DNA from: an uncultured Clostridia bacterium
GTDB lineage: Bacteria; Bacillota; Clostridia; Oscillospirales; Oscillospiraceae
Assembly: GCA_947164825.1 (NCBI GenBank)
Contig: CAMUYE010000003.1
Coordinates: forward strand, 1 to 55,288
DNA: 55,288 nucleotides
Direction: 5' to 3'
The position numbers were made by a program, and so were the translations under genes. Below the pieces are notes generated by a model. It saw only the letters and a program-made list of their open reading frames with translations. It had not been told where the DNA came from and did not search any database. How positions within the stretch are numbered: the stretch's first letter is position 1; each line of letters opens with the position of its first letter. Of the stretch, positions 1,318 to 42,570 are shown piece by piece.

Positions 1318-1627
1318 GTTTCGTTGGTCGTATCACCCGGGCATGGTTCGTGCCTGCGGCGGGGCGTTTCGTTCCGGTAATTCTGAGCGCAGCAAAGGAT
1401 CCGTTCTGGTGCCTCGGGCGGGCGCTCAATGAGCGCCCCTACGGCGGGAGACGGCAGGCCGGCGTCGGAGCGGGAAGCGCTGTGGCGCACACTGTGCGCC
1501 GCTACGGGCGGGAGACGGCGGGCAAATTGCCCGCGCTGCATTCCCTGATCCCTGATCCCTTTTGCGGGCTGATAGCCCGCGCTACATTCACTGATCCCTG
1601 ATCCTTGATCCCTGATCCCTGGTCCCT
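1318..1627. repeat. mosaic intergenic repeat block (variable-stem palindromes + CCCTGAT heptads)
   Basis: GGGCGCTC-AAT-GAGCGCCC-CTACGG (1420-1444), GGCGCACA-C-TGTGCGCC-GCTACGG (1484-1507), CGGGCAA-A-TTGCCCG (1519-1533), GCGGGCT-GAT-AGCCCGC-GCTACA (1564-1586), tandem CCCTGAT units 1544-1560 and 1591-1625. Confidence 0.85.
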
Positions 1628-3656: not shown

Positions 3657-3679
3657 GCGGGCTAATAGCCCGCGCTACA
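3657..3679. repeat. variable-stem palindrome (GCGGGCT-AAT-AGCCCGC-GCTACAT)
   Basis: Same as the copy at 1564 apart from one loop base; abuts the stop codon of the M42 peptidase gene. Confidence 0.85.
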
Positions 3680-13792: not shown

Positions 13793-13938
13793 AATGCAAA
13801 ATGCAAAATGCAAGATGCAAAATGGAAATGGCCGGGGGAGCGGACAACAGAGTGCCGTCCCTACAGGCGGGCAGATTGCCCGCGCTGCAGGCTGGGGGAC
13901 GGGCCGGGGGAGCGGGCGGTCAATGACCGCCCCTACGA
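13793..13938. repeat. mosaic repeat block: GCAAAAT heptads + variable-stem palindromes
   Basis: (GCAAAAT)x4 degenerate at 13796-13823; CGGGCA-GAT-TGCCCG-CGCTGCA (13868-13889); GGGCGGTC-AAT-GACCGCCC-CTACGA (13914-13938). Confidence 0.85.
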
Positions 13939-18557: not shown

Positions 18558-19196
18558 TTAGACGCCGGAGGATCGGAATTGTTCCGGATCCTGCTCCGAA
18601 ATTCTGATCCGGCAGAGCATCAGAACGGCGGGGCCGGTGAGGGTCAGATCGTCGGGAGCGGAGAGGAGCAGGGCTTCGCCGGGGGCGAGGGTGGAGGACG
18701 GCGGACAAGCGATGCTTGTCTCTGCATGCGCGCTGCCTTCCACGCAGTAAAGCAAGACCTGTTCCGCGGCGGGGGACGGCGGACAAGCAATGCTTGTCCC
18801 TACATTCAGATTTGTCTGAGCAGCGGAAAGATGCAGGACCTCCATAGTACCGGTGACGCGGCCCCGGCGGAGCATCAGGTTGAAGTCCCGGCAGCGGCCC
18901 CGGCTGTGGGTGGCGTCGGCCCCGGAAAAGGCGTGGGTCTCGAAGGGGCGGAGGCGCAGGGGCTCGCCGCCGTTATGGGTCAGCTCGATCTCGCCCTCCA
19001 GGGTGGAGATCCAGCGGTCGTAGTCCGGCAGGGGCGTGAAATCCGACTCTTCCAGATCCACCGTGGCGGAGCTGACGCGCCAGAGGAAGTCGCGGTCGGC
19101 GTAGTTCGCGGTCGGCGGGAAAATGGCGAGCTGGGTCGTCGTGCCGCCGGACCATTTCGAGACAACGTAATCAGCTTTCGTGCGTTTTTGCAGCAT
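18558..19196 (-). CDS. HutD/Ves family protein carrying two in-frame palindromic repeat insertions
   Basis: MLQKRTKADYVVSKWSGGTTTQLAIFPPTANYADRDFLWRVSSATVDLEESDFTPLPDYDRWISTLEGEIEL; in-frame GTSIACPPS and ETSIACPPS at the two palindromes. Confidence 0.85.
   Translation of the reverse strand: MLQKRTKADYVVSKWSGGTTTQLAIFPPTANYADRDFLWRVSSATVDLEESDFTPLPDYDRWISTLEGEIELTHNGGEPLRLRPFETHAFSGADATHSRGRCRDFNLMLRRGRVTGTMEVLHLSAAQTNLNVGTSIACPPSPAAEQVLLYCVEGSAHAETSIACPPSSTLAPGEALLLSAPDDLTLTGPAVLMLCRIRISEQDPEQFRSSGV
18697..18806. repeat. two variable-stem palindromes inside HutD-like CDS
   Basis: GGCGGACAAGC-GAT-GCTTGTCTCTGCAT (18702-18726) and GGCGGACAAGC-AAT-GCTTGTCCCTACAT (18778-18805). Confidence 0.85.
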
Positions 19197-19249: not shown

Positions 19250-19345
19250 TGCGGATTGCCACGACCAGTGTACGCACTGGTCTCGCAATGACAATCCTGG
19301 GAGGCCGGTGCCTCGGGCGGGCGGCCAATGGCCGCCCCTACGGCG
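19250..19345. repeat. mosaic repeat: GATTGCCACG..CCAGTG..CACTGG..CGCAATGAC element + variable-stem palindrome
   Basis: 19254-19292 resembles the reverse complement of 41968-42006; GGGCGGCC-AAT-GGCCGCCC-CTACGG at 19319-19343. Confidence 0.8.
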
Positions 19346-27858: not shown

Positions 27859-29886
27859 TCAGTGCAGTTTTGCGCCGGCGGGAATGTGCGGATCGACCAT
27901 CAACAGGTGGAGTTTTTCTTCCTCGCCCTCACGGTGGATGGCGCTGAGCAGCATACCGCAGGATTCGACGCCCATCATAGCTCTGGGAGGCAGATTGGTG
28001 ATGGCAATGCAGGTCTTGCCGATCAGCTCCTCGGGCTCGTAGAAGGCGTGGATGCCGGAGAGGATGGTCCGGGGCGTACCGGTGCCGTCGTCCAGGGTGA
28101 ACTTCAGCAGCTTCTTGGACTTCTTGACGGCCTCGCAGGCCAGGACCTTGACGGCGCGGAAGTCGGATTTGGAGAAGGTCTCAAAATCAACCTGTTCCTC
28201 GAAAAGAGGCTCGATCACGACCTTGGAGAAGTCGATGGGCTCCTGGTGCGGGCCGATGTGGGCATCGGCCCCTACGGTTTCCTGCGCGGCCTTGCAGGCC
28301 TCCTGAGAGGGGCAGGTAAAGCAGGCGCAGTCGAAATCTGCGGGCTTCTCTTCGGCGGGCTGCGGGGCGTCGGGGACGCCGCCCCCTACAGGGCGATCCA
28401 GGGGCTTCATTGTCGGGAACAGGATGACCTCGCGGATGGAATCCGCGCCGCACAGGAGCATGACGCAGCGGTCCACGCCGATGCCCAGGCCGCCCGTGGG
28501 GGGCAGGCCGTATTCCATGGCAGTGATATAGTCCTCGTCCATCATGCCCGCCTCATCGTCGCCTCTGGCGCGCAGCTCGACCTGCTTCAGGAAGCGGCCC
28601 TTCTGGTCGATGGGGTCGTTCAGCTCGGAGAAGGCGTTGCCCATCTCGCAATGGCAGATGAAGAGCTCGAAGCGCTCCGTGAGACGGGGGTCCTTGGGGG
28701 ACCGCTTGGCCAGGGGGGAGACGTCCACGGGATGCATGGTGATGAAGGTGGGCTGGATCAGCTTCTCCTCCACCTTCTGGTCGAAGCACTCATAGAGGTA
28801 GTTGCCCCAGCTGTGCTCCTTGGCGGGCCCCAGGACCACGCCCACGGAGGCGGCCAGCTTTTCGGCGTCCTCATCGGAGGTGATCGCCATAAAGTCCACG
28901 CCCAGATAGTGCTTGACCGCCTCGGCCATCGTCATGCGGGGCCAGCCGGGCGTCAAATCCACCTCATGGCCCATCCAGTTCAGCTTGTAGGTGCCGAGGA
29001 TTTCCTTTGCGGCGGAGGACAGAAGGCCCTCGAAGATATCCATCATGCCGTGGAAGTCGGTGTAGGCCTCGTAGAGCTCCACGGTCGTGAACTCAGGGTT
29101 GTGTTTGGGATCCATGCCCTCGTTGCGGAAGATGCGGCCGATCTCGTAGACACGCTCCAGACCGCCCACGATGAGCCGCTTCAAAGGCAGCTCCGTGGCG
29201 ATGCGCATGTACATATCGATGTCGAGGGTGTTGTGGTGGGTGATGAAGGGCCGGGCGGTGGCGCCGCCGGAAATGGTGTTGAGCACCGGGGTCTCCACTT
29301 CCATGTAGCCCCGGCTGTCCAGGTAGCGGCGGATGTGGGAGATAAACCTGGTGCGGATCTCAAAGTTGCGGCGAACCTCCGGGTTCATGATCAGGTCCAC
29401 GTAGCGCTGGCGGAAGCGGGTCTCCACGTCGGTAAGACCGTGGAACTTCTCGGGCAGGGGCAGCAGGGACTTGGACAGAAGGGTCACGCTTCGGGTGCGG
29501 ACGGAGATCTCTCCCCGCTGGGTCTTGAACACGGGGCCCTCAACGCCCACGATATCGCCCACGTCCAGCTTCCGGCAGTCGGCAAAGGCTTCCTCGCCCA
29601 TCTCGTCCACCTTGATATAGAGCTGAACGCGGCCGGAACGATCCTGGAGATCGGCAAAGATGGCCTTGCCCATGCCGCGCTTGGACATGATGCGGCCAGC
29701 CAGACGGACGGACTGCTCCTCCAATTCTTCAAAGCGGTCCTTGATCTCCTGGGCGTGATGGGTCACGTCGAATCTGGTGATCTGGAAGGGATCTCTCCCC
29801 TCCTGCTGCAGGGCCTGCAGCTTCTCGTGCCGGACGCGAACCTGGTCTGTCAGGGGCAGTTCGGCCTGGGGTACAAACTTTGCCAT
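27859..29886 (-). CDS. lysS: lysyl-tRNA synthetase (class II) fused to C-terminal tRNA-binding (MetRS-beta/Trbp111-like) domain
   Basis: MAKFVPQAELPLTDQVRVRHEKL...AGRIMSKRGMGKAIFADLQDRSGRVQLYI...FRNEGMDPKHNPEFTTVELYEAYTDFHGMM...GGLGIGVDRCVMLL...IREVILFPTMKPL; then FSKSDFRAVKVLACEAVKKSKKLLKFTLDDGTGTPRTILSGI...LPPRAMMGVESCGMLLSA. Confidence 0.96.
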   Translation of the reverse strand: MAKFVPQAELPLTDQVRVRHEKLQALQQEGRDPFQITRFDVTHHAQEIKDRFEELEEQSVRLAGRIMSKRGMGKAIFADLQDRSGRVQLYIKVDEMGEEAFADCRKLDVGDIVGVEGPVFKTQRGEISVRTRSVTLLSKSLLPLPEKFHGLTDVETRFRQRYVDLIMNPEVRRNFEIRTRFISHIRRYLDSRGYMEVETPVLNTISGGATARPFITHHNTLDIDMYMRIATELPLKRLIVGGLERVYEIGRIFRNEGMDPKHNPEFTTVELYEAYTDFHGMMDIFEGLLSSAAKEILGTYKLNWMGHEVDLTPGWPRMTMAEAVKHYLGVDFMAITSDEDAEKLAASVGVVLGPAKEHSWGNYLYECFDQKVEEKLIQPTFITMHPVDVSPLAKRSPKDPRLTERFELFICHCEMGNAFSELNDPIDQKGRFLKQVELRARGDDEAGMMDEDYITAMEYGLPPTGGLGIGVDRCVMLLCGADSIREVILFPTMKPLDRPVGGGVPDAPQPAEEKPADFDCACFTCPSQEACKAAQETVGADAHIGPHQEPIDFSKVVIEPLFEEQVDFETFSKSDFRAVKVLACEAVKKSKKLLKFTLDDGTGTPRTILSGIHAFYEPEELIGKTCIAITNLPPRAMMGVESCGMLLSAIHREGEEEKLHLLMVDPHIPAGAKLH
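28250..28392. repeat. two variable-stem palindromes inside lysS linker
   Basis: GGGCCGATG-TGGG-CATCGGCCC-CTACGG (28250-28277) and GGCGTC-GGG-GACGCC-GCCCCCTACAGG (28366-28392). Confidence 0.85.
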
Positions 29887-29912
29887 GCGGATTCCTCCTG
29901 TGAATTGCATAG

Positions 29913-42545: not shown

Positions 42546-42570
42546 GGACGGCAGTGTGCCGTCCCTACGA
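42546..42570. repeat. variable-stem palindrome GGACGGCA-GTG-TGCCGTCC-CTACGA
   Basis: Perfect 8-bp arms, 16 bp upstream of the recD2 ATG. Confidence 0.9.

Follow-up and report, generated by a model that had tools for sequence, protein, structure and literature searches.

How a single gene came to carry the same palindrome twice in one reading frame is the question raised by hutD, which lies in a window of 55,288 nucleotides, the whole stretch of DNA analysed here, corresponding to contig C3 of a 2.07-Mb genome assembly with 82% completeness.

Two in-frame copies of one palindrome in hutD

The 212-aa product of the gene matches the HutD profile PF05962 (E 4.5e-37, 128.4 bits against a curated Pfam cut-off of 25 bits), and it is by sequence alone that we call it HutD/Ves-like. 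The original prediction placed two near-identical palindromes about 78 bp apart within this ORF, each adding the peptide SIACPPS, and we confirmed its coordinates, sequence identity and doubled peptide. A 38-nt repeat occurs at 18690-18727 and again at 18768-18805, with 87% identity, a spacing of 78 bp and one shared frame, yielding VGTSIACPPSP at site 1 (aa 132-142) and AETSIACPPSS at site 2 (aa 158-168), and the palindrome core is exact in both copies (Table 1). A search of the window allowing up to three mismatches recovered three sites against 0.05 expected by chance, and simple arithmetic at the genome's density puts the chance of two palindromes in a 636-bp gene at P ~1e-4.

The repeat unit in hutD consists of a GTAG tag followed by GGACAAGC-ATT-GCTTGTCC. 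Its stem of 8 bp and loop of 3 nt form a perfect 16-nt palindrome, within the 5-13-bp stems and 20-40-bp units that define GTAG REPs, and GTAG stands directly 5' of the hairpin at 18781-18803 (GTAGGGACAAGCATTGCTTGTCC), as in REPs of the GTAG type. The element form originally described was partly recovered: the palindrome is present in both copies, whereas the tag is found only in the copy at 18768-18806, the other reading GCAGAGAC. As had been proposed, the TAG within GTAG is avoided by the frame, since the site-1 copy is read GTA-GGG (VG) with TAG out of frame. The proposed antisense orientation had to be given up, as by REP convention (5'-GTAG-hairpin) both copies are sense with hutD.

The AlphaFold model of the window HutD shows a cupin fold with its whole barrel kept (mean pLDDT 92.4) and both copies in loops, which agrees with the earlier expectation of a fold uninterrupted around the inserts. 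Copy 1 (aa 132-143) occupies the loop between strands 128-132 and 145-154, while copy 2 (aa 158-169) runs from the end of strand 156-160, across a hairpin turn, to strand 167-170. For the 266-aa HutD of the related genome G007, the model gives a largely low-confidence insert region (residues 139-178, pLDDT <50) and a high-confidence barrel.

Table 1 Features of the window that bear on the GTAG hairpins.
Feature	Position	Strand	Description
hutD	18558..19196	minus	HutD-family (cupin), 212 aa, two in-frame REP copies; ORF, PF05962 and AlphaFold model
REP copy, loop site 1	18768..18806	minus	sense ATGTAGGGACAAGCATTGCTTGTCCGCCGTCCCCCGCC; GTAG tag 18800-18803; palindrome 18781-18799; encodes VGTSIACPPSPA (aa 132-143)
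REP copy, loop site 2	18690..18728	minus	sense ATGCAGAGACAAGCATCGCTTGTCCGCCGTCCTCCACCC; degenerate GCAG tag; palindrome 18704-18720; encodes AETSIACPPSST (aa 158-169)
Intergenic GTAG REP	19319..19341	minus	upstream of hutD; family GTAGGGGCGGCCATTGGCCGCCC
GTAG REP	13914..13936	minus	variant stem GGCGGTC (GTAGGGGCGGTCATTGACCGCCC)
GTAG REP	1420..1442	minus	stem GGCGCTC; in repeat cluster 1420-1584
GTAG REP	1564..1584	minus	stem GCGGGCT; family flanks a RAYT of the same genome (C103, L206)
GTAG REP	3657..3677	minus	stem GCGGGCT
GTAG REP	42546..42568	minus	stem GGACGGCA (GACGGCA family); family present twice in the HutD of G021
lysS	27859..29910	minus	lysyl-tRNA synthetase ending in a tRNA_bind domain; second gene of the window to contain a GTAG hairpin in frame
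GTAG REP of another family	28250..28275	minus	GTAGGGGCCGATGCCCACATCGGCCC in the linker between the LysS domains; translated VGADAHIGP, close to aa 546

The hairpin in the genome and in other genes

The palindrome GACAAGCNNNGCTTGTC occurs in 44 exact copies in the 2.07-Mb genome, against none for a reversed control pattern, and 33 copies in this genome carry the GTAG tag; this GACAAGC family is the only one that we traced across the whole recovered genome. The majority of copies stand in the context GTAGGGACAAGC-NNN-GCTTGTCCG. Some are single units, frequently with the tail CCGCCGTCCCCCGC, and others are paired, the two units facing each other at a distance of about 110 bp and enclosing inner hairpins (e.g., L008, L012, L054, L056 and L061), the dimer arrangement of GTAG REPs. 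Few of the 44 palindromes fall within recognised protein domains, which, judged from open frames and domain matches, we counted as the high-copy and mainly extragenic distribution of such repeats. Of the 23 genus genomes, 21 have the tagged form; the genus, a group of rumen Oscillospiraceae (Bacillota), is represented almost entirely by metagenome assemblies, and the relatives of HutD point to a position within the rumen and omasum Oscillospiraceae of the Clostridia.

HutD is one of several proteins in this genome with the same palindrome in-frame, the others including a phosphopantetheinyl transferase (L011), TmcAL (L058), RnmV (L065) and CitXG (L068), and in these other genes other frames and the reverse orientation are also used. 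In RnmV, aa 130-184 represent a complete facing pair that matches dispersed repeats in other genomes. The site is empty in relatives such as G008, G009 and G018, where residue ~128 is joined nearly straight to ~185, and other repeats occupy the same place in other relatives, such as VGAAIGRQPD in G006. The parallel that had been drawn with lysS also stands, with a GTAG hairpin in the linker ahead of the tRNA-binding domain. A GTAG hairpin with the stem of this linker element, CCGATGCCCACATCGG, flanks a RAYT gene in L169, and four relatives show a gap at the position of the linker REP.

Three further observations concern repeats and domains in coding frames. The fusion of lysyl-tRNA synthetase to a C-terminal tRNA_bind (MetG-beta-like) domain is conserved across much of the genus. 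The REP at 42546-42568 lies directly upstream of a 758-aa ORF and in its frame, translation probably starting downstream. At L263 (G010 contig C27:12200-14400), a 132-bp unit (VGADAHIGPPPDDTTAPEKPPLLAGEGDRRPAAVEGSVPTTD) recurs in three in-frame copies within an ORF that has GTPase-like motifs and no Pfam match; here two repeat families have merged to give a protein repeat in tandem.

RAYT transposases and a proposed origin of the insertions

A profile search with PF01797 gave weak matches to a short HUH protein in the genus, whose gene on contig C67 of G006 is embedded among GTAGGGACAAGC hairpins. Using this 158-aa RAYT as a protein query, we found relatives in 18 of 23 genus genomes. Genes for HUH proteins of 157-162 aa are flanked by GTAGGGACAAGC/GTAGGGACGAGC hairpins in G006, G001 and G018 (L175, L176 and L178), and most RAYTs of the genus have their own hairpin family beside them: GACAAGC/GACGAGC in these three genomes, and GCGGGC, CCGGCA, GGCGAGC, GGCGCAC and others elsewhere. 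The RAYT motifs MPNHVHLI and WQIHFHDHVIRNEQDY are present, covering the HUH and catalytic-tyrosine regions of this predicted transposase, and the sole PDB match of the G006-type protein is 4ER8 (TnpA-REP, E 9.5e-8). The flanking of RAYT genes by hairpin families, together with the 4ER8 match, indicates that the element belongs to a RAYT-REP system.

The genome under study has three RAYTs in its recovered 82%. One of them (C103, L206) is flanked by a GCGGGCT hairpin, of a family that the window contains as well, at 1564 and 3657; no GTAG hairpin was seen near the other two. No GACAAGC-flanked RAYT was found in the recovered 82%, which we count against our explanation; the RAYT matching GACAAGC may lie in the missing 18% or have been lost. 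A longer Y1 transposase, found by the PF01797 search of this genome (L001/L070), was rejected as a mobiliser because it adjoins a ACACAGGGACGGTCC repeat with no GTAG. At L070 (C15, 6280-7116) this gene follows the ACACAGGGACGGTCC repeat, apparently as another transposase-repeat pair.

Within this one genus, the RAYT loci L159-L209 hold many RAYT-hairpin pairs in which the stem sequence varies and the pairing and GTAG tag stay constant, and thus offer a natural data set on RAYT-REP co-evolution. At L158 (G019 contig C61, 1450-3321), a single 623-aa frame runs through a complete PfkB kinase, a GTAG REP array of about nine AVGAVIGRPPQPPE units in frame, and a RAYT domain.

Our reading, to which we assign a probability of roughly 0.86, is that each hutD palindrome is a GTAG-type REP, a small mobile hairpin that is non-autonomous and depends on a RAYT for its movement, and that it landed in a tolerant loop. 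A RAYT (TnpA-REP) transposase would move the GTAG REP hairpin through single-stranded DNA, and copies would land in the two HutD surface loops that tolerate extra residues. Selection would then remove insertions that break the frame or fold, with frame-keeping ones surviving (here GTA-GGG-ACA-AGC, VGTSIACP), and the loops would become sinks gathering further repeats of several families in related species. We infer that a RAYT made these particular HutD insertions, and that the HutD protein is expressed and tolerates, rather than uses, its enlarged loops. In short, parasites of the genome seem to end up in the protein as additional translated loops.

HutD loops across relatives

Gaps at the SIACPPS positions had been anticipated in homologues. 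Among 80 HutD loci compared, those outside the genus lack SIACPP at either site and nearly all have short loops, whereas several members of the genus share VGTSIACP at site 1, so that the site-1 copy of the window may be old or recurrent and not private. Within the genus, both loops are filled by differing in-frame stacks drawn from several multicopy repeat families. The window HutD has one GACAAGC copy per loop site; the HutD of G007 contains, in order, GACAAGC, CCTCCCCTGC, GACAAGC and CCTCCCCTGC; that of G006 (268 aa) begins with a CCTCCCC-like stretch followed by TGTCATTCTGAGCG, GACAAGC, GGCGGCC and TGTCATTCTGAGCG; and that of G021 (340 aa) has about nine elements of five kinds, seven from an automatic scan and two from the alignment. 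The HutD proteins of species such as G010, G013, G005, G014 and G020 have no elements.

The palindromic repeat kinds tested from these stacks are each multicopy in their own genome, with 24 copies of CCTCCCCTGC..GCAGGGGAGG in G021 and 25 in G007, and 38 of GTAGGGACGGCA in G021; the TGTCATTCTGAGCG repeat has few copies by a strict pattern and is probably undercounted. Neither CCTCCCCTGC..GCAGGGGAGG nor TGTCATTCTGAGCG, both stacked with GACAAGC in relatives, carries GTAG, and RAYT therefore cannot be assumed for either. A GACAAGC and CCTCCCC composite was rejected as a dispersed unit, since it occurs only within the HutD of G007 and G021 and is thus a local compound. A further point against our explanation is that the 12-residue element at site 2 lengthens the protein by only about 3-5 residues relative to insert-free relatives; this copy therefore either took the place of older loop sequence or was followed by loss of it. 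In a Lachnospiraceae MAG (RGIG5021, L131), HutD has an unrelated repeat, SQAKSEVLLAESEV, at loop site 2, which suggests that this site is generally permissive.

At site 1, the window, G007, G021 and G002 share one and the same 24-bp core, from which G003 and G006 depart by a single change, while G004 and G019 retain decayed forms at the identical codon. The hutD cores of the site-1 carriers differ by 11-24% (11-21% among the four with an identical 24-bp core), and the 36 bp next to the element are up to 47% different, with the element at the same place before the same strand. Any one of three processes would account for the identity of the core: repeated insertion in recent times, conversion templated by other copies, or selection acting on the hairpin. 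In a gene tree of the HutD core, 13 of the 16 inner branches are unresolved, and the tree leaves a single versus multiple site-1 origin undecided. No target-site signature was established for the insertions, which also counts against our explanation. It is conceivable, although we hold it only tentatively, that the two HutD loops are preferred sites where REPs from the pool of the same genome insert again and again or overwrite earlier ones, the loop evolving in concert with mobile DNA.

Such identity could also mean that in-frame REPs are kept for a DNA, RNA or protein function, for example as an mRNA hairpin that tunes expression or as a useful variable loop. The four identical cores in otherwise divergent genes argue for this, as do the one orientation and frame shared by all GACAAGC copies in HutD, but recent re-insertion or conversion from other genomic copies would yield equal identity. 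Moreover, copies have decayed in L018, L022 and L024, many relatives have none, and outside HutD different frames and the reverse orientation occur. We therefore regard retained function as unlikely, if the best placed of the alternatives, and continue to favour mobile REPs settling in tolerant loops.

Selection on hutD

If hutD were a decaying pseudogene, repeats would gather in it because nothing removes them. This would fit the absence of hutD matches in some genus members and the faster evolution of the C-terminal half, where a median dN/dS of 0.40 (C-core, 37 codons) against 0.22 in the N-core (110 codons, 155 pairs) points to weaker constraint. However, the N-core value reflects purifying selection, from which it follows that insert-bearing hutD genes are not pseudogenes, a condition raised with the original prediction; the frame is intact in 18/18 genus orthologues examined (L017-L035 minus the outgroup L032) despite up to nine insertions, and the core enzymes LysS and RnmV follow the same pattern. 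hutD is thus constrained, less so in its repeat-taking half, and decay is very improbable.

Least probable of all is that SIACPP is an ancestral HutD loop of the genus, conserved for protein function and palindromic by chance: eight genus members do have VGTSIACP, intact or decayed, at the very same codon, but the genome holds 44 occurrences of this DNA, mostly GTAG-tagged and outside recognised domains, four species with widely divergent flanks share an identical 24-bp core, the palindrome is lost in L018 and L022, other repeat families occupy the same loops in other species, and multicopy GTAG hairpins flank RAYT genes.

Relation to known repeat systems and implications

GTAG REPs were described as tagged hairpins, many of them dimers, some lying in-frame in genes and at times twice per ORF, with RAYTs flanked by them; in-frame cases are known from O. 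terrae and others, and a single instance is mentioned, Xanthomonas recB, in which two species have inserts at roughly matching positions (Di Nocera, De Gregorio and Rocco 2013, PMC3733652). The elements studied here are alike in tag, dimers, in-frame copies and RAYT flanking, and differ in that several families stack at the same HutD and RnmV loops across a genus. They also share with the REPs of S. maltophilia a perfect 16-nt palindrome with a 3-nt loop after GTAG (PMC8266576), and with REPINs the facing pairs. The likeness to REPtron/RAYT (TnpA-REP)/REPIN systems (PMC8266576, PMC3116915) extends to HUH-Y1 proteins with MPNHVH and WQ..F..H.IR motifs and the 4ER8 match, whereas here a Bacillota genus has many RAYT-hairpin pairs and the GACAAGC RAYT is absent from the recovered part of the genome. 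Rickettsia RPEs are likewise palindromic repeats translated in-frame inside functional proteins of many genes. However, they are CGTC-tagged or long (~150 bp), the CGTC repeats without transposase association; the elements here have GTAG, not CGTC, flank RAYTs in relatives and, judged by tag, do not belong to the RPE class.

In-frame intragenic REPs are thus already known, and the apparent novelty lies in the Bacillota host and in the recurrent stacking of several families at the same loops of orthologues. The hosts in the 2013 survey were Proteobacteria, Cyanobacteria, Chloroflexi and the PVC group, with no Firmicutes (PMC3733652), and we found no report of in-frame GTAG REPs for this bacterial group in the open-access literature, to which the search was confined. 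Our results extend in-frame intragenic REPs to Bacillota and tie them to identifiable RAYT genes. For annotators, they are a warning that strings like VGTSIACPP, VGAAIGRPP and CHSERSEAESKNP, when met in rumen proteins, represent translated repeats and not conserved motifs. With one orthologous gene set that offers empty, single and multiply filled sites, two questions can now be put to the test: are REPs still being moved by RAYTs, and do mobile hairpins provide proteins with new sequence? If the two HutD loops are indeed preferred sites, RAYT/REP systems would be an engine of protein-loop diversification in these bacteria.
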